64,000 bases of DNA from contig OZ024869.1 in NCBI GenBank assembly GCA_964017185.1, positions 1,758,501 through 1,822,500 of the forward strand, read 5' to 3'. This document shows positions 3,333 to 48,168 of the stretch, in pieces; position 1 is the stretch's first letter; each line of letters begins with the position of its first letter. Source of the DNA: Rugalucina vietnamica. Lineage: Eukaryota > Mollusca > Bivalvia > Lucinida > Lucinidae. The position numbers and the translations under genes are program-made. The notes below the pieces were generated by a model. That model did no database searches. It saw nothing but the letters and a program-made list of their open reading frames with translations, and had not been told where the DNA came from.

Positions 3333-4745
3333 ATGCGACAAAGCTCGATATTTAAATGCTACCGCAGGAGGCGATATTGATGTTGAAATATGAATAAAAC
3401 TCTAATGGCTTTGATTATTTAACCCTTGTTGCTCAGTTAAACAAAATAATGAAGCAGAATAAAACACAGCAACCAACAAACAATAAATTGTTCTTCTAAT
3501 AGTTGTATACATGGGGTTATTACTTAACTTTGGAGGTATTATTACTTGAAGTACATAGGTAAGTGTTAAGTCTTTTTGGAAATAAAATAATTGGCAGTTT
3601 CTTTTTTTTCTAAACGCTATCGTCTAATATGCCAAACTTATTCTTCCTTCGCTTTAATTGTATTCATTTCCTTGCCTTTTACACTTACTTTCATTTGATC
3701 TAAGCCTTGTGATGGCTTCAGAACTTTTTGGGATATTAATATTCTGCTTGCGGTGTGCCAGGTGGTTTTTCTCGGGGTTCTCCCGTTTTCGCCCACCTAC
3801 TGATTGGCCCGTCTCATATGAACTGAAATAATCTTGAAAGGGACGTAAAACAGAATTTAAAAAAGGTGGTCTTCAGTTCGATGGACAATATTTAAAATGT
3901 TACCGTAGGAGGCAATATTGATATTGAAATATAAAATAAAACTCTAATGGCTTTGATTATTTAACCCTTGTTGCTCAGTTAAACAAAATAATGAACCAGA
4001 ATAAATACAGCAACCAACAAACAATAAATTGGTCTTCTAATAATTGTATACATGGGGTTATTTCTTAATTTTGGAGGTAATATTACTTGAAGTACATAGG
4101 TAAGTATTGTCATTTTGGAAATAGAATAATAGACAGTTTCTTGCTTTCTTAACGCTGTCTTCTAATATGTTTGTTATATTCTATTGGCCAAACTTATTCT
4201 TCCTCTGCTGTAATTATGTTGTATTCATTCCCTTGCCTTTTACACTTACTTTCATCTGAACTAAGCCTTGTGGTGGCTTCAAAACTATTTAGAACATTCA
4301 GGTTTTGTCTCTGTTCTGTCTGCAAAAGACTGGATTTCTTCTTTTGCTTTAGTCTCGCTTTAGTTTGTCTTCAGTTCGATAGACAATATTTTTAAAAAAA
4401 ATGTTACTGCAGGAGGCAATATTGATGTTGAAATATGAATAAAACTCTAATGGCTTTGATTGTTTAACCCTTGTTGTTCAGTTAATCAAAATAATGAAGC
4501 CTGAATAAAACACAGCAACCAACAAACCATAAATTGTTTTAACGTTTTCACTGCTTCCAAAGGATCAACCTTTTATATTTTATTCCAATAATTGTATACA
4601 TGGGCAAAGGGAATACCAGTACTTAATTTTGGAGTTATTTCTTGAAGTACATAGGTAAGTGTTTACGCTTTCTTGGAAAAATAAGATTATAGACAGTTAC
4701 TTGTTTTCTAAACGATGCTGTCTAAAGTGTTTGTTAATACAGTTT
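3333..4745. repeat. Triplicated ~500-bp unit
   Basis: Three direct copies begin near 3333, 3878 and 4375. Each has TTACYGYAGGAGGCAATATT, then CTCTAATGGCTTTGATT, CAGCAACCAACAAAC, ATTGTATACATGGG and AAGTACATAGGTAAGT. Spacing is about 545 and 500 bp. Copy 3 has an insertion near 4550-4590 whose TGCTTCCAAAGGATCAA motif matches, in reverse complement, the DNA flanking the hammerhead motif at 8157. A GTAAGT after TACATAG is conserved in all three, but no coding exon can be recognised. Confidence 0.85.
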
Positions 4746-5564: not shown

Positions 5565-7395
5565 AACAGGTACAAGTGGGCAATAATCAGGAAATGGCGC
5601 AATCAGATAAAAAATCCACTCTAAAAACCAAGGTGAGAATAAACGAAATTGACAATTAGGTACTTATATTGTAAGCCGAATGAGCAGTTATTTCCCAATA
5701 AGTGGCCTCTCTGTTACCCACACCTAACCCATTTCACGTAAATGTATCGTAATGTATATTGTACATATATTTCATGATATGTGTCAAAGTTTTTGTTTGT
5801 TTTTACGAAGTTGTATTATATATATGGTTTAATTTTAGGTTTGTTCGTTATCACAATATAGTGTCTCATAAGTCTTAAAGGCTGGATATCAAATATGTAC
5901 ATGCTGTTTTAATGTTTTATGTATATGTATATTTGATATGCGACACTGTATTAAAACATTACTTACTTAAGCCTAGGTTACATTTGCCCCGATCATCGTA
6001 CGATTTTTCGGTCTGCGATTTTCTCTACGATTTTTAGACATCGTAGGAGATCGTGGGCTACGACGTATGTGTTAACGATTCATACGGGCATCGTGCGATT
6101 TTTTGATCTGCCATTTGTCGACGCTCATACAAAAACGCAAGGCGATCGTACGGCAGTCGTATGTCTCCGCAGATAGTACGTAGATATCGTACGGATCCCG
6201 TGCGTTGTCCGTACGGAGTCCCTATACGTTTTGATACAAAACGCAGGGAGGCCGCACGGTAGTCGTAGGGTCTCCGCAGACTGTTAATGGATATCGTACG
6301 GAGTCCCTTGGACTTCTGACTGATGCCTTGGTTACATTTGGCCTACGATTAGCTTGCGATGATCGTACGATGCCATTTTTTGCATTTTCGTGCGGCCTCC
6401 GCAGGGTGACCTTACGATGTCCCTACGATTCTACGACTTCCTACGATCTCCGTAGCCTCTACGATCTTGTAATAGTCTGCACTATTACAAATTTTAAAAT
6501 CGTAAGACCGTAGACCGTAGACACGTCGTAGGGCATTACACGGGCACCGTACGGATACCCTGCGATAATAGAGCGGTCACCGCACGATTTTTTTTATGAT
6601 AATTTGGGAACAAAAATCGTACAGTGATCGATTTCTTGTTCTAGCTTTCTTCGATGTCCTGAGTCGGAACTGTTTGGAGATCGTAGGGAAATCAAAGGGT
6701 CTCCGCACACTTTAAGTTGAAATCGTACGGAACCCATGCGATGGCCGTGAGGAGTCCTTACGATTTTCTTGCGGTCTCCCTACGATAGCCGCACGATGTT
6801 AGGTGTCCGTTCGATTTTCATAAACTTGTGATATAACCGTACGGATGCCGCACGATCACCCTAAAGGTCTACGATTATCTTATTATTTTAGTCCCCAAAT
6901 TATCATAAAACCGTGCGGTGACCGCACGATCATCGCAGGGTTTCCGTAAGGCGCCCGTACGATGATGCTACCTACGACGTGTCTACGGGCTACGGTCTTA
7001 CGATTTTTAAAATTTGCAAAAGTGCAGACTACTACAAAATCGTAGAGGCTACGGAGATCGTAGGAAGCCGTAGGAAGCCGTAGAATCGTAGGGGCATCGT
7101 AGGGTCACCCTGCGGAGACCGCACGAAAATGCAAAAAATGGCATCGTACGATCATCGCAAGTTAATCGTAGGGCAAATGTAACCTAGGCTTTACTTACCC
7201 AAACCTAACTAAAATATGAAAACCCACATAAGGTGCAAACAGTACAAAAAGTCAACACCAAGACATATTTCAATAAGAACCACAACAGAAGTATTGCCTT
7301 GGAACGATCAGAAATATAACATTACTGATGGACTTAAACTAGTTTTATATGGTCATCACCTCATCCTCAGCTTCTGCAGTGACTCTAATATACAC
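5565..7395 (-). mobile_element. Family B repeat, copy 3, split by an insertion
   Basis: The reverse-oriented family B sequence stops at about 5728 (after AAGTGGCCTCTCTGTTACCC) and resumes at about 7195 (ACTTACCCAAACCTAACT, then AAAATATGAAAACCCAC). The repeat is flanked at the break by TTACCCACACCTAAC (5714-5728) and TTACCCAAACCTAAC (7195-7209). These fit a 15-bp target duplication with one difference. The 83-aa ORF at 7216-7467 is part of this repeat. Confidence 0.75.
5970..7190. mobile_element. CGTA-rich foldback element
   Basis: The ends are inverted repeats: AAGCCTAGGTTACATTTGCC at 5970 and GGGCAAATGTAACCTAGGCTT ending at 7190. A second internal copy of the left end (CCTTGGTTACATTTGGCC) sits near 6325. 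From 6325 to 7190 the sequence is close to one large palindrome with ~430-bp arms. For example, the segment at 6590 (ATGATAATTTGGGAAC) matches the complement of CCCCAAATTATCATAA near 6893. The interior is saturated with CGTACG, TCGTAGG and CGCACGA words. It has no coding capacity. The 5729-5969 stretch ahead of it is AT-rich and unrecognised. Confidence 0.8.
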
Positions 7396-7591: not shown

Positions 7592-8065
7592 TTGATCAGA
7601 TTGGGAGATTATGGGTGCATCCCTGAATACCTTTGGGATAGTCTATATACACTTTGGTCATGTCAGAATGTATGCGACGCCTTATCCTATCTCCTTGATA
7701 ATATTTATATTAGATTCGAAACCAAGTTATACAGACAAATTGTTGGAATTCCGATGGGTACAAATTGCGCCCCTCTCGTAGCCGATTTATTTTATACTGC
7801 TACGAAAGAGAGGATTCATGGATTCTCTTAACCATATCAATCAAGCTGATTTTGTCGAGGCTTTTAATTCGACTTCCAGGTACAAGGACCATTTAGCTGA
7901 AAATAAAAATAAAACTGAGATCCTCTAAGAGCAGTGAACATATTAATCATCCCGATTTGGACCCCTAGAACATTGACAATCCTTATTTTGAAGCATGGTC
8001 AATCAAATTTATCCACCTGAACTATCATGTTGCGGACTTCAACACGCGAAATAAATGTTTAACAG
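7592..8065 (+). pseudogene. Penelope-like reverse transcriptase remnant
   Basis: This is a decayed piece of a Penelope-like (PLE) reverse transcriptase. In the first frame I read a block with YIRFETKLYRQIVGIPMGT followed by NCAPLVADLF, which is the RT motif 4 region (QIxGxPMGTxxAPxxAxLF) of this group. A frameshift near 7790 then moves to another frame, which reads FMDSLNHINQADFVEAFNST. A stop follows at about 7926, in a segment shared with repeats at 13252 and 32825. A third piece (NIDNPYFEA, then MVNQIYPPEL in a shifted frame) ends near 8065. The catalytic YxDD block and the GIY-YIG endonuclease are not found. It is surely non-functional. PLE identity is family knowledge applied to the PMGTNCAPL block; the exact clade cannot be told. 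Confidence 0.85.
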
Positions 8066-8156
8066 CCAAACTTCTCCAGCAAATTTAAGATAATAAAATA
8101 AAATATAAAGGTTTGATCCTTTGGAAGCAATAAGAACATTCAAAGGGAGATAGTAT

Positions 8157-8202
8157 GGACTATATTGCGCAATTTCGGGTAATGAACCCTCATCAGTAGC
8201 CC
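8157..8202 (-). ncRNA. Minimal hammerhead ribozyme motif 1 (PLE type)
   Basis: Read on the minus strand, all elements of a type I hammerhead are present: stem I GGGCUA with UAGUCC (6 bp, one G.U); core CUGAUGA; stem II GGGU-UCAUU-ACCC; GAAA; a palindromic stem III UUGCGCAA; and the cleavage dinucleotide UA directly before the 3' stem I strand. Very short stem III with a palindromic sequence is the known form in Penelope-like elements, where it is thought to act as a dimer. No core residue is missing. It lies ~100 bp after the PLE RT remnant but on the opposite strand, so it may belong to a separate insertion. Confidence 0.8.
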
Positions 8203-8369
8203 TTTTAAAACCGGCGACGAAAGCCAGACTGTTGTACTGTAATTTCGAAAATTTACACGAGAAGTCTAAATCAAAGACACATTCCTAAACGGGGTCAAAT
8301 AATTTAAACAATTAAGAAACTTATAGAAAAGAATGATTTTTCTTTTCAGTTCAGAAAAAAAAAAATCAT

Positions 8370-9085
8370 TATTTACGTTACAAACGTCTAGGAAATAACT
8401 TAAATGTTATGCGACACTCCGTATGCTTAGTTTTAACCCAATCATGGTTAAAAACTATACTGCCTTCTTAATTGCCCTCTAGGGTCAGGCGTCAGCCTCT
8501 ATGATGGCCCCGACTTAAAACTATTCATTTTAGTTGGTTGGGATCTGTTGCTTTGGTTTTCATTAAGTTATTTGGCGCCCAGGGATCTCCATCGTCGGGC
8601 AACTTACTGAATCTGTGAGTCCTCGTTTTCAATTCATCATGGTGGTTATCATGATTTACTTGTTTGCGGTTGATGATTCACTGACTAGTATAGAGATTCA
8701 CAACGAGGACCAAACAACTAACTAAATCTTGTAAACCATTGCAGAAGATAAGGGTGATGTTAGGGCCCTGTAAAACCAGTTTAAGCCCCCTCCCCTCCGA
8801 AATTTTATATTACTGGTCGTTCCAAGGCGATACTTCTGTTGTGGTCCTAATTGTTTTATGTTTTGAAGTCGAATCTTTGTGCTGCTCGAACCCTATGTAT
8901 GTTATCATATTTTTAGTTAAGTTCGGGTAACTGAGTGACCGCCTGTTTGAAAATAGCTTACGATATGTTTTCTTAGTATAAGTACCTAGTTGTCAATAGT
9001 TTTTCCCCACCTCGGTTTTTGAAGTGGGAATTTCTTTCTGACTGCACCATTTCCTGATCATTGCCTACTTGAACCTCTTAGCTTT
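8370..9085 (+). mobile_element. Family B repeat, copy 4
   Basis: It starts with GTTACAAACGTCTAGGAAATAAC and ends CCTGATCATTGCCTACTTG, collinear with the copy at 2195 with small deletions in the middle. The segment GAGTCCTCGTT (near 8618) and AACGAGGACC (near 8702) form a clear inverted repeat within it. A family-B-like tail joins a unit near 9090-9130 (CTTTGCCTAGTGGTGGCTTCAG) that resembles the ends of the triplicated unit at 3333. Nothing recognisable follows in 9130-9606. Confidence 0.8.
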
Positions 9086-9606: not shown

Positions 9607-9829
9607 TGAGCCACCAACAATCTGCCTAGGCGAAAACAAAAGCGCAGATCAGCTTCGCAGTAACTGCGAAGCTGATCAGCGCCTTTGTTTTCGCTACTCG
9701 GATAGTACAGTTCCTCTTCTACTTTAATCCGAAATTTCAAGATTCTAGCTCTTTTCTGTGACTGTACGGGTCGGTTTGTGTCGGACCTGGTCGGAAACCA
9801 CATTGTTGGTTTTCCCACGAGGCGGCTCT
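9607..9829 (-). mobile_element. Family C MITE, copy 1
   Basis: The ends are GAGCCACCAACAATCTGC and GTTGGTTTTCCCACGAGGCGGCTC, a terminal inverted repeat of the type GAGCCGCCYCRTGGGAAAACCAACAAT with a deletion on the left. A strong internal hairpin, CAGATCAGCTTCGC with GCGAAGCTGATCAGCG, lies near 9645-9687. Six related copies occur at 24229, 38359, 38597, 39237, 40984 and 45162. Non-coding. Confidence 0.85.
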
Positions 9830-11255: not shown

Positions 11256-14200
11256 ATGGACATTGTCTGCTCAATAGATTTAGGTACCACCTTCTCTGGC
11301 TACGCATTCTCGTCCAAAAAGGAGTACAACGAGGACATGTTCAAGATACATCTGAACGAAGAATGGATGTCAGGCCACCCAAATCTACACACCTTCAAGA
11401 CCCCGACCATACTGCTCCTAAACCCGGACAAGACGCTGCACTCGTTCGGATATGAGGCGGAGAGGAAATTTCATAAATTGATGGAAGGGAAGAACCATGA
11501 TCAGTATTATTACTTCAAGAGGTTTAAAGCAGATCTAAAGACAAAGGTGGGCAAACTTTTATTAAACAGCTAAAACATGTAAAAAGAAGGATTCAGTCAT
11601 TTTAGATAAATTCAAGACACGAAAAGTAAAATTGAATAAACTAAGGACTGACACTATTAAATCTAAAGTCCAAACCCAGATAGGACGCCAGGTGGAAGAG
11701 ACCGCCATATCAGCACAAGTTATGAGCAATCACAACATCACACAAGAAGAGCAAGATGAGCATCTCTCTCCTAGTAAGGTGGTCATCCTGCTGTGGTCTC
11801 AACAAAACCTGTGACAGGAATCACACACAACAGATAAGCTGAAATTTTGAAATAGACGAAAGTCCAAGGTTATAATGACGAGGCTGATTTTGCAGTTATA
11901 GTGGTCTATGTATGGTCTGTTTGAATGCCGATTATACTGGCAGGTGTCACATGATATGGGACCAAATTCTAGTCAATCTCTCTAGTGCTTGGTAATGTTG
12001 ATAGGACCTGGTAATTTCTACATACCGTTTTCACAAATCTAACGAAGTATTGACAAAAATTAATGTTTTATTGCAGCAATTTAGAAAAGACACAATAATA
12101 GAAGAAGAAGGCGGGAAATCTTTGAATGGCATCTCCGTATTCTCACTAGCACTGAAGTATCTAAGAAGCCACTTCCTTGATGCACTAGGTGTGGGGGACA
12201 AATACTCATCGTCCGATACCCTCGCCAAGGGATACGCTGCTCGATATGTGATAACTGTACCAACCAAGTGGGACAATTATGCCATCGACTGTATGAAATC
12301 CGCTGCCAAAAAGGTAAATAATTTAACCTTAAAACATACACACGTAATGTGCCTTTGACAGCTTCATGCCAAGTAAAACAAACCAAGCGAGCCCATTTCT
12401 TACAAAACATTATCTAGAACGCAACAAGAGTAATAGCAAAAGGCACACTTCACCACATACCCAGTGTAAGAGGGGCAAACTTTTAATTTTCCTTTACATG
12501 CATCCAGCAAGTACGCAACGACCAGGGACTTGTGCGATTAGAACCAAAGTCCAACCCTAAAAACCGAAGACGAAAAAAAAACAAATTAACAATCACCTGA
12601 ACGACGAGTGGACGATAAAATAACCATGTACAATTTTTCCAGGCTGGTGTTGTCCCATGTACAATCGTTACTGAAAGCGAAGCTGCAGGGAGATATTGTA
12701 GACTTCTTCCACTGAGACCAACCAGTCAAGGCCCGTATAAAATACAAAAGTCCGGGAGCACTCATTTGATCGTCAATCTTGGAGGTACCACAAACAGTAT
12801 TTATCATTAACAGTCCATGCAATATACAGAGATTTTTAAAGTTGTAAAAATGAAAATTTTCAGTCGAAAAAAAATGATATTTTCTGATTTTTTATCAAAA
12901 CATAGATTATATGTACACGTTACAGGCGGTTCTAACGAGTACCCACAATCTATATTTTGGAGCAAAAATAAAAGTGTATAAAAGTGGGGTTCAAGGGGGT
13001 ATTCAATACATGGCCATGTTTGCATGATGCATTATTTATTCATACACACAGAACATCTATATTTTTGCAAGTATCGTACCTGCATTTGTTTAAGCCCAAA
13101 ATAGCCAAAACGCAAGCTTTGCAATTTCTTCTTTTTAGTGTGCAGTGCTGCTGGAAACCAGTGTAAACATGGTGTCATATTCTATGACCAGATGCTGCAG
13201 ACACGGAATTAGTCGGGAAGAATAATTATTTTCTTCTTAAGAAAATAAAAAGGACCATTTAGCTGAAAATAAAAATAAAACAGAGATATTTTAAGAGCAG
13301 TGAAAATATGAGAAAGAGGATGGACCATACCATGGTTTAAGCTACTAAAGCCTCGTCAGTGATCCTTTAGAATTATCTAACTTAACCCAAACTCTGGTAT
13401 AATTGCTTTATGACAAGTAAGGAACGCAGAGCATTATTTAATAAAAAAAAAAAACTCGTTCTATAGCGAATGATGTGAAAATGGATAATTAGTTATCTTT
13501 GCACATGCCCACAATGAGTATAACATATGCTGTGCGTTTTTTTTTTCAACAGGTTTGAACATAGATACAGCAGTTCGAGAAATCAGAGAAGACGATACAA
13601 TCAATGAATTTGACAAGAACTTAGGGAATTCTTCAGGAGCCGCTCGAGTTGATGTGGAATACCTCAAATTCCTGAATAAGCTCTTCGGCAATGAATTCAT
13701 TGAAGCTTACGCTAAGAAATACAGAGTGGACTTCCTATCCTTGCAATATGAATTTGAAAAACGTAAACGAAACTTCTCAATGGATGTGGATGAAGGGACG
13801 CCACTCCGGTTACCACAAACGCTTATTAAGGGTTATAGTACTAAGTATAAACAGTCTCTTCAGTTCATGATTGACGATACCGATTATGTCGGGAAAATCC
13901 TGTCGAAAGACGATAGCCTTATACTGGATAAATCTGTGATGAAAGAAATATTTGGACCTGCAGTGAAAAGCACTGTGGGATACCTGACAAATTTATCACG
14001 TGACCCGGAAGCTAAGGGATCTGATGTCATAATTCTTGTGGGAGGATTTGCCAACTCTCCTGTAGTGATTGGTGCTGTTCGTTTCTACTTTCCAAATGCC
14101 AGTATTGTTGTACCAGATGAACCCGAACTAGCAGTATTAATGGGTGGGGTAATGGTTGGCCATAATCCCGATTCAAAAATAATCATTCAGAGCAAATATT

Positions 14201-24228: not shown

Positions 24229-24464
24229 TGAGCCGCCCCGTGGGAAAACCAACAATGTGGTTTCCGAACAGGTCCGACACAAACCGACCTGTACAAGCAC
24301 AGAAAAGAGCTAGAAGCTTGAAATTTCGGATTTAAGTAGAAGAGGAATTGTACTATCCGAGTAGCGAAAACAAAGGCGCTGGTCAGCTTCGCGGTTACCG
24401 CGAAGCTGATCTGCGTCTTTGTTTTCGCATATGCAGATTGTTGGTTTTCCCATGACGCGGCTCA
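24229..24464 (+). mobile_element. Family C MITE, copy 2
   Basis: It opens TGAGCCGCCCCGTGGGAAAA and ends GGTTTTCCCATGACGCGGCTCA. The internal hairpin CAGCTTCGCGG/CCGCGAAGCTG lies near 24385-24412. Confidence 0.9.
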
Positions 24465-32320: not shown

Positions 32321-32824
32321 CACATTCAAACACAATACATGATGGTTAAAAACAAACCTAAAATTCACACAATTGTCCAGCCAATGAACCAGTATTGTAC
32401 GCAATGAACGCATGTATAGTTATTATCCTGTAACCCAGTGTTTGTTTTAAGTAGTGTTTTATATTGCAAATGTGATTTTTGTTTATTATTTATGTTCCTT
32501 ACAAAATAAAGCTGTTTGTTTTCTTATAAAAGAGTTGTACATACCTAGATAAATCAATAAAAAAGGTGTATTATTCACATGCACCAAAACTCAACTGTGT
32601 CTTGTGCTGTCTTAACACTAGGTACACTGTGTATAAAAAGTAATGTAAGTAACATGCCTGACTGACCAAATGTTTCAAAATTGTTTAAATTATATTATAT
32701 TTTAAGCATATGAACACAAAACGGTAATTTATTATTCTGTAAAATTGATCAATGGTAAAATTTTATTCACAGAATGTCCTTTTATACTGTATTACTGGCC
32801 CATTAACTTTTCTCATTAATATGC

Positions 32825-33130
32825 TCACTGCTCTTAAAGGATCTCAGTTTTATTTTTATTTATTGCAATCAAAGCGGTGACACACTTTAAGGCTCTCAGT
32901 TTTAATTTTATCAACATATCTATTATGAATTCGAAACACTATCACTACTTGACATTTTCCTGTAAGTGTAGTAAATAAAGGAGAAAAGCAGGAACAAACG
33001 GCTACCAGCGGTGATTATAACTTTATTTGTATTTTGTCTACGCGTTTCGGCCAACAATGACCTTCTTCAGGACAAAGAAAACATAGAATTTATCTTACTG
33101 AAGTACTAAAAAACGGAGAAGTAACGTCAC
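32825..33130 (-). mobile_element. PLE terminal-repeat fragment with hammerhead
   Basis: It contains CACTGCTCTTAAAGGATCTCAG (shared, in reverse, with 7880-7945 and 13252-13310) and, ~200 bp away, the hammerhead motif at 33033-33076. The stretch around the motif (GTCTACGCGTTTCGGCC and GACCTTCTTCAGG) is a hallmark of Penelope-like terminal repeats in many animals. Confidence 0.65.
33033..33076 (-). ncRNA. Hammerhead ribozyme motif 3 (PLE type)
   Basis: Minus strand: perfect stem I UUUGUC with GACAAA (6 bp); core CUGAAGA; stem II GGUC-AUUGUU-GGCC preceded by one extra A; GAAA; palindromic stem III CGCG; UA before the 3' stem I strand. All core bases are present. The extra A before stem II is the only departure from a standard core, so activity is uncertain. 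Confidence 0.7.
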
Positions 33131-38358: not shown

Positions 38359-38598
38359 TGAGCCGCCTCATGGGAAAACCAACAATCTGCATAGGCGAAA
38401 ACAAAGACGCAGATCAGCTTCGCGGTAACCGCGAAGCTGATCAGCGCCTTTGTTTTCGCTACACGGATAGTATACTTCCTCTTCTTTTTAAATCCGAAAT
38501 TTCAAGCTTCTACTAGTTCTAGCCTGCTTCTGTGACTGTACAGCCTGATTTGTGTCAGACCTGTTCGGAAACCACATTGTTGGTTTTCCCACGAGGCA
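38359..38598 (+). mobile_element. Family C MITE, copy 3
   Basis: Full copy, from TGAGCCGCCTCATGGGAAAA to GGTTTTCCCACGAGGCA, with the hairpin CAGATCAGCTTCGCGG / CCGCGAAGCTGATCAG at about 38410-38441. Confidence 0.9.
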
Positions 38599-39236: not shown

Positions 39237-39472
39237 TGAGCCGTCCCATGGGAAAACCAACAATCTGCATATGCAAAAACAAAGACGCAGATCAGCTTCG
39301 CGGTAACCGCGAAGCTGATCAGCGCCTTTGTTTTCGCTACACAGATAGTACAATTCCTCCTCTACTTAACTACAAAAGTTCAAGCTTCTAGCCTGCTTCT
39401 GTAGCTGTACAGGCCGGTTTGTGTCAGACCTGTTCGGAAACCACATTGTTGGTTTTCCCACGAGGTGGCTCA
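39237..39472 (+). mobile_element. Family C MITE, copy 5
   Basis: From TGAGCCGTCCCATGGGAAAA to GGTTTTCCCACGAGGTGGCTCA, with the same internal hairpin as copy 3. Confidence 0.9.
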
Positions 39473-41720: not shown

Positions 41721-42060
41721 TATATATGGTGTACCAGAAGGGTCAAAACCACCGGTAGCAGTCCACTGGTAAATTTTTACCAGTGCACTGCTAAATTTTA
41801 CCAGTGCACTGCTATATTTTACCAGTGCACTGCCAAATTTTACCAGTCCACTGATAAATTTACCAGTGCACTGATAAAATTTAGCAGTGCACTGGTAAAT
41901 TTACCAGTCCACTGATAAAATTTAGCAGTGCACTGGTAAATTTACCGGTCCACTGATAAAATTTAGCAGTGCACTGGTAAAATCGGTGACTTTGTATTTT
42001 ACCAGTGCACTGCCATCTAAGGGTATGTTCTTCATCCAATCAAAATACAGCTCCTATCTC
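41721..42060 (+). repeat. Palindromic ~21-bp unit array, left copy
   Basis: After the lead GGTGTACCAGAAGGGTCAAA and ACCACCGGTAGCAG, about 13 units of a ~21-bp repeat follow, with core CAGTGCACTG (8 copies) or CAGTCCACTG. The ideal unit TTTACCAGTGCACTGGTAAA is itself a perfect 20-bp palindrome. The array changes strand sense in the middle. A tail with TCCAATCAAAATACAG follows. The 77-aa ORF here is repeat translation. Confidence 0.9.
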
Positions 42061-47809: not shown

Positions 47810-48168
47810 TATACCTGTATGGATTGAGATATAAGCCGATTTTTGATTGGATAATGAGATAGAGTAAATGCCAGTGCACTGGTATATCGAAAGGGTCATA
47901 ACTAATACCAGTCCACTGCTAAATTTTACCAGTGCACTGCTAAATTTTATCAGTGGACTGTTAAATTTTACCAGTGCACTGCTAAATTTTATCAGTGGAC
48001 TGGTAAATTTACCAGTGCACTGCTAAATTTTATCAGTGGACTGGTAAATTTATCAGTGGACTGGTAAAATTTGGCAGTGCACTGGTAAAATTTAGCAGTG
48101 CACTGGTAAAAATTTACCAGTGGACTGCTACCGGTGGTTTTGACCCTTCTGGTACACCATAGTTATAT
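47810..48168 (-). repeat. Palindromic ~21-bp unit array, right copy (inverted)
   Basis: Inverted partner of 41721-42060. It opens with TTTTGATTGGATAATGAGAT, has ~11 units with CAGTGCACTG or CAGTGGACTG cores, and ends CACCGGTGGT-like (CTACCGGTGGTTTTGACCC, then TTCTGGTACACC). The matching outer ends and matching inner TTTTGATTGGAT blocks make the two arrays look like terminal inverted repeats of one ~6.4-kb unit. Confidence 0.88.

Follow-up and report, generated by a model that had tools for sequence, protein, structure and literature searches.

The 64-kb stretch of DNA analysed here (hereafter the window; C1:1758501-1822500) carries on its minus strand a 46-nt motif with the design of a type-I hammerhead ribozyme (HHR). 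The motif lies in a short retrozyme insertion flanked on both sides by the remains of a Penelope-like element (PLE), and four further 5'-truncated retrozyme fragments are present in the window (Table 1).

Table 1. Positions of the hammerhead motif, the retrozyme insertion and the associated elements in the window (PLE, Penelope-like element; RT, reverse transcriptase)
Feature	Position	Strand	Basis or remark
Type-I hammerhead ribozyme (46 nt), part of a family A retrozyme	8157..8202	-	Read-off, descriptor scan, 802 genome core copies
Core CUGAUGA, conserved	8190..8196	-	Read-off
Core GAAA, conserved; A15.1 is 8173	8173..8176	-	Read-off
Stem-loop II, GGGU-UCAUU-ACCC	8177..8189	-	Read-off and structural alignment
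Stem III, AUUGCGCAAU, self-complementary, A15.1 to U16.1	8164..8173	-	Read-off, alignment, co-fold
Predicted cleavage site, 3' of A8163 and before U8162	8162..8163	-	Hammerhead numbering and sequence
Inserted family A retrozyme (0.59 unit), from 8310 (5'; monomer 227) to about 8096 (3'; monomer 66-67)	8096..8310	-	
Decayed PLE, C-terminal part of RT, up to the insertion	8024..8081	+	
Decayed PLE resumed: C-terminus, 3' region, PLE 3' end near 9079	8312..9079	+	
Candidate target-site duplication TTAAGA, left copy	8085..8090	+	Single case, weak alone
Candidate target-site duplication TTAAGA, right copy	8312..8317	+	Single case, weak alone
Retrozyme fragment, family-C-like and 5'-truncated; common 3' end	7901..7947	-	
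Retrozyme fragment, 5'-truncated; common 3' end	4537..4584	+	
Family-C-like fragment with decayed hammerhead; common 3' end	13267..13374	-	
Family-C-like fragment; common 3' end	32796..32861	+	

Read from 8202 to 8157, the RNA consists of GGGCUA, CUGAUGA, GGGU, UCAUU, ACCC, GAA, A-UUGC/GCAA-U and, on the two sides of the predicted cut, A and UAGUCC. The core bases, the 6-bp stem I, the 4-bp stem II and the UA cleavage site described in a first-pass annotation of the locus are all borne out by the minus-strand read-off, with one G-U pair in stem I and a 5-nt loop on stem II; stem III is self-complementary as had been noted, and somewhat longer (10 nt). Residue H17 is an A, and the predicted cut falls between 8163 and 8162 by hammerhead numbering. 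With an invariant core, three helices, an NUH site and an open helix I, the motif is confirmed, in its sequence design, as a complete type-I hammerhead with a palindromic stem III.

A relaxed-descriptor scan of the window returned this motif as the sole match. Simulated order-1 Markov sequence (500 Mb) contained no match to the full descriptor (stems I, II and III of at least 6, 4 and 4 bp) and six to a looser one (at least 5, 3 and 3 bp), the latter equivalent to 0.0015 expected per window; the core pattern by itself is expected 0.04 times per window. Exact copies of the 37-nt HHR core number 802 in the whole genome (399 and 403 by strand), with none in a reversed-sequence control. A chance hammerhead, antisense to decaying PLE coding sequence, was considered in view of the position of the HHR between two PLE coding pieces and of the palindrome, which we took to resemble codons of a PLE peptide. 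Such an origin is vanishingly improbable given the empty result in the 500 Mb of simulated sequence, the exact core copies and the ending of the PLE alignment on both sides of the HHR, and it was ruled out by the genome copies, namely the scored copies described below and the 802 cores.

At 8157..8202 every Rfam family stayed below its gathering score, the nearest model being RAGATH-1-hammerhead (18.5 bits against a gathering score of 56.3, E 1.9, in a 601-base search), and the whole-window Rfam listing with E up to 10 contained no hammerhead. A search of the species' own genome with RF00008 gave no match, and none was obtained in the controls either, so that this search is uninformative. The lack of a covariance-model hit had been named beforehand, together with a lack of self-cleavage, as a ground for refuting the HHR; the lack of a hit is real, but as a refutation it would mislead. 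The genomic copies decide the matter in favour of the HHR.

The retrozyme insertion and the interrupted element

The insertion (215 bp) is 100% identical to copies in three other loci (L004, L005 and L013). To its left, where a frame with GIPMGTNCAPL lies upstream of the PLE piece at 8024..8081, the sequence can be aligned to the PLE copy of locus L067 as far as 8081 (58 nt, 88% identity); to its right, the alignment picks up again near 8303-8312 (849 columns, 77%), and roughly 140-150 nt of the PLE are missing at the insertion point. Judged from these sequence relationships, the window HHR is part of a young retrozyme inserted antisense into an old, decayed PLE. The first-pass annotation had correctly placed the HHR near a PLE RT remnant and on the opposite strand, and had left its host element open; the host is the 374-bp retrozyme, and the puzzle of the opposite strands is resolved because retrozyme and PLE inserted independently.

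The filing of the motif as a PLE hammerhead does not survive these observations. The corresponding explanation, in which the HHR is a PLE pLTR ribozyme that processes transcripts of the surrounding PLE as a dimer, would fit the PLE remnant on both sides, as well as the minimal HHRs, without or weak in helix III, that are known from PLEs (PMC7761336). It is nevertheless extremely unlikely, since the HHR sits in an insertion that interrupts the PLE sequence, outside the PLE repeat and on the strand opposite to the PLE frame, and belongs to a 374-bp unit present at many sites; moreover, a descriptor scan and an Rfam search found no hammerhead in the intact PLE unit of locus L070, described below.

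Three retrozyme families and the covariation of their hammerheads

A search of the genome (1.09 Gb, 47 contigs) with window positions 8080-8245 gave 2495 first-look candidates, 40 of which were scored (identity 96-100%), some of them lying in tandem at a spacing of 365-375 bp. These copies constitute family A, with a unit of 374 bp (GC 36%) that occurs both in tandem and dispersed. Family B (379 bp, GC 0.37) was found in a locus fetched with family A, and its own genome search gave 2171 first-look candidates (40 scored), while family C (377 bp) was found by a scan of the loci. The genome counts are mostly lower bounds, the 802-copy core count being that of the whole genome, and the loci studied were nearly all drawn from the neighbourhoods of retrozymes in this one genome. 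Between families, identity is 96-97% at monomer positions 60-150, 57-73% at positions 1-59 and 151-327, and 65-85% in the HHR region. In their type-I HHRs, their tandem repeats within 150-450 bp, their low GC (families A and B) and their dispersed multiple copies, the families agree with the published description of metazoan non-LTR retrozymes.

To assess covariation, 28 of the 31 HHR variants found were aligned by hand on their structure, a MAFFT alignment with a misplaced family C gap having been set aside. Standard pairs occupy 163 of 168 cells in stem I, 95 of 112 in stem II and 131 of 135 in stem III, shares that are slightly flattering as three variants with changed core or stems (L056-1225, L007+566 and L026+2130) were left out; with the 3' partner slid by one or two positions, the values are at most 80/140, 52/112 and 70/125, respectively. 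Eight pairs show a standard pair altered on both sides, and the lowest stem II pair is missing in family B (A-C). A related structure in other genomic copies, the absence of which had also been listed as a reason for rejecting the HHR, is thus present, with paired stems and compensatory changes across the families.

The stem III palindromes of families A, B and C are UUGCGCAA, UUGUACAA and CCGCGG, and a self-complementary stem III kept across three families is what a dimer-acting HHR would have. Action as a monomer, with a helix III of three pairs and a GCGC loop, is possible, though we lean against it. A 3-bp stem III can form, and the cloned repeat of a mussel retrozyme cleaves at about 0.1 per min (PMC7229834); in none of the three families, however, is the single-strand minimum-energy fold a hammerhead, and the central palindrome pair is retained between families through a C-G/U-A swap. 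The co-fold minimum of two copies is a double hammerhead for families A and C (-33.5 and -35.1 kcal/mol), while that of family B is not exactly so, differing in stem II. The original proposal of a dimer-acting hammerhead of the PLE type therefore stands in part: the palindrome preserved by compensatory change and the co-folds of families A and C agree with it, but the ribozyme is not the PLE's own.

Insertion ends, the probable partner element and a common block

Alignment of the loci and the window to the repeated units gave 98 arrays, 74 of them unique, of which 73 were readable after exclusion of one cut by a locus edge. One internal 3' end, located 61-66 nt 3' of the predicted cleavage site, is shared by 67 of the 73; the common site follows position 66 in family A, 61 in B and 65 in C, immediately 5' of TGCTATTACTGCAG. 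Ends within 10 nt of it were found in 50 of 53 search-hit arrays and in 17 of 20 collateral arrays, the latter being those that were not the match that brought their locus in. The 5' ends are scattered round the unit, and the 71 arrays in which both ends could be read are 40-1973 bp long. The six 3'-end exceptions include two pieces in L036, one an array interrupted by a PLE. Short flanking duplications are in slight excess (mean 5.41 against 4.85 in shuffled pairs, sd 0.14; 54 of 60 junctions, six duplicates having been dropped). Fixed 3' ends together with ragged 5' ends are the pattern predicted for internally initiated, target-primed reverse transcription on circular or multimeric RNA, of which they would be the mark.

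At 2427-2633 of L036, a PLE 3' fragment lies within a family B array and is flanked on either side by retrozyme positions 22-24, resembling an insertion with a 3-nt duplication.

Amplification mainly at the DNA level, by unequal crossing-over or rolling-circle excision of a satellite in which the HHR is a passenger, would account for the tandem arrays and for the array-specific similarity of family B, whose units differ by 1.4% within an array and 3.9% between arrays (none of 2000 shuffles as low; three arrays with two or more full units, L052 supplying 10 of the 14 within-array pairs). In family A, the single within-array pair differs by 4.0% (687 of 2000 shuffles as low), showing no clear closeness relative to the between-array pairs. 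This explanation is quite improbable, as DNA-level amplification does not predict the many single, partial and dispersed copies with a common 3' end and scattered 5' ends, some of them accompanied by short flanking duplications.

The genome also harbours an abundant PLE. A 169-aa fragment of it gave 29,577 first-look candidates; the 150 that were scored are 99-100% identical to the query fragment, many of them in 640-aa open frames and some in tandem with a period of 4.22 kb. The family appears to be very young, as exemplified by the tandem locus L070 (C1:83952500-83962400). The L070 element has a 150-aa GIY-YIG-like N-terminal frame (Pfam GIY-YIG E 0.0075, 17 bits, below the cut-off of 22.6), followed in one frame by 155-aa and 640-aa pieces with a TGA between them, and a SECIS_1 match at the frame end (37.4 bits, over the gathering score of 35; 1625-1692 and 5848-5915); TGA and SECIS together form a selenocysteine signal, selenocysteine insertion itself being predicted. 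Its RT was identified by the motifs GIPMGTNCAPL and YLDD, which we take to be of PLE type, and searches of Pfam, NCBIfam and PDB with the protein gave no RT match. Naiad PLEs reportedly have a permuted GIY-YIG and selenocysteine, and we presume the combination of GIY-YIG-like N-terminus, TGA, SECIS and tandem arrangement to be theirs. With its GIY-YIG-like frame, in-frame TGA, SECIS over gathering score and tandem arrays, the L070 PLE is Naiad-like in its component parts.

A remnant PLE copy in the window has a SECIS_1 match at its frame end (2317-2384; 37.0 bits, gathering score 35); the reading of this match as a chance one was dropped, because the element turns up again, next to an in-frame TGA, in intact copies of the PLE. 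Scans of viral contigs with pieces of the HHR or the PLE gave no match, or pattern matches without a relative, and a phage scan gave three short, weak matches. A single PLE relative was present among genome contigs (L001, recorded under the MAG of a Bathymodiolus symbiont), and a bivalve PLE hammerhead pattern had no match in the genome.

The sole similarity found between the retrozymes and L070 is a block of 41-46 nt, which matches L070 2281/2286-2326 at monomer positions 81-126 in family A (93.5%), 81-121 in B (97.6%) and 85-125 in C (100%). Its start lies 19-20 nt 3' of the site at which the retrozyme insertions end and, in the PLE, 16-20 nt beyond the genomic 3' end. The PLE ends were counted in the loci and the window, leaving out L070 and L002; from 86 fragments, three at locus edges and 12 starting after 2235 (11 of these being matches to the shared block) were set aside. 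Among the 71 readable fragments, 50 end at 2256-2278, 37 of these at 2266-2270, and none runs through. A retrozyme 5' end lies 0-8 nt after a same-sense PLE 3' end in four of 72 readable cases, one of which fits PLE insertion into a retrozyme array better, compared with a background of 61 in 20,000 random 53-nt windows (P 7.5e-5); opposite-sense PLE was found at none of the retrozyme 5' ends, and the retrozyme 3' flanks gave one case in 73. The hairpin predicted for the block (z -0.4 to -1.8) is not clearly better than shuffles.

Inverted PLE sequence directly adjoins, at a CAGGTACCTAA site, the 3' end of a PLE in L018 (the same place as L065) and that of a retrozyme in L004; the site is perhaps a preferred target.

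The block is best read as a putative RT-recognition signal common to the retrozymes and their autonomous PLE partner, although a captured promoter, or a signal of some other kind, is an alternative. Mobilisation of a genuine retrozyme by a different element (another PLE family or a LINE), with the block as a captured promoter or shared host signal, is unlikely. It would be compatible with the putative nature of the block function and with frames in the window that by eye resemble other non-LTR elements; against it stand the offset of the block from the common 3' end, which equals that in the PLE within a few nt, the restriction of the similarity found between the retrozymes and L070 to this very block, the many near-identical copies of the L070-type PLE and the presence of same-sense PLE-retrozyme junctions.

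A proposed cycle, known systems and other repeats of the window

We consider it probable, with good confidence, that the HHR belongs to a non-autonomous non-LTR retrozyme copied from circular or tandem RNA by the RT of the Naiad-like PLE through the 41-nt block. Tandem retrozyme copies would be transcribed, neighbouring HHRs would pair by the palindromic stem III, and the double hammerheads would cut the RNA to units of about 374 nt, which a host ligase would circularise. The PLE RT would then recognise the block in the circle and, at a nicked target, begin to copy from a point 19-20 nt 5' of it, running backwards round the circle for anything from a fraction of one turn to several turns. Copying of this kind would give all insertions a common 3' end and 5' ends at random positions; since the block lies 3' of the start site, it would be kept only from circular or tandem templates. 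Within this proposed cycle, the window copy, with 0.59 of a unit and without the block, is a dead-end insertion. The PLE would be relevant to the HHR because it is the probable mobilising partner.

It is also rather likely that animal retrozymes are circular-RNA SINEs of PLEs, in which a 41-nt signal 3' of an internal start recruits the PLE RT and is inherited only through a circular or tandem template. If so, the need for such a template would explain the self-cleaving ribozyme in these parasites. The HHR itself is of an ordinary type, and the novelty lies in its surroundings: a specific candidate helper PLE and a short, testable signal can now be named for the retrozymes of this genome, which are thereby linked to the internal initiation of reverse transcription demonstrated in vitro for a PLE. 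In a literature search of titles and abstract beginnings, with most subscription papers outside its scope, no such shared block was named and no paper contained both 'retrozyme' and 'Naiad'.

PLEs are said to carry minimal hammerheads with a short or palindromic stem III, for which a dimer model has reportedly been put forward. The present HHR resembles them in both respects and differs in its location in a separate 374-bp element outside the PLE, none having been found in L070.

A review (PMC7761336) describes animal retrozymes as lacking any motif that would point to a helper; the block shared with the abundant PLE, at nearly equal offsets in the two elements, is a candidate for such a motif in the present genome. 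The non-LTR retrozymes of Mytilus galloprovincialis (Cervera and de la Pena 2020, PMC7229834), which have a repeat length of about 350-390 bp, are similar to those described here in their type-I HHR, in unit length (374-379 bp here), in GC content (36-37% in families A and B), in the occurrence of single to multi-unit copies and in the presence of several HHR families per genome. The palindromic stem III of the present families, which suggests dimer action, sets them apart, dimer action being reported for amphibian rather than most invertebrate retrozymes (PMC7229834). The fixed 3' end of the insertions, followed by a block shared with a PLE, is a further difference from the Mytilus retrozymes, in the portion of their account covered here.

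In the PLE PAc of Anolis, reverse transcription starts within the RNA, 111-118 nt into the frame, and the HHR cuts at 26 (PMC11167929), which by subtraction places the start 85-92 nt 3' of the cut. The PAc protein requires the first 172 nt of the frame, i.e. RNA 3' of the start region, and the HHR is dispensable for insertion in vitro (PMC11167929). The retrozymes resemble PAc in that the 3' ends of their insertions fall at a fixed internal position of the RNA, some tens of nt beyond the HHR cut, and in their layout, in which the predicted cut is followed by 61-66 nt, the presumed start and the block. PAc, however, is a PLE that is autonomous and carries an HHR of its own, whereas the element described here is non-autonomous and its block is matched in a PLE without a detected HHR.

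Two satellite arrays of 21/41-bp units in the window (41751-41984 and 47900-48113) are mutually complementary. An interspersed repeat of about 216 bp occurs at 9613-9828, 24230-24445, 38378-38593 and 39256-39471; it has an inverted-repeat core, GCGAAAACAAAG...CTTTGTTTTCGC, and is perhaps a MITE.
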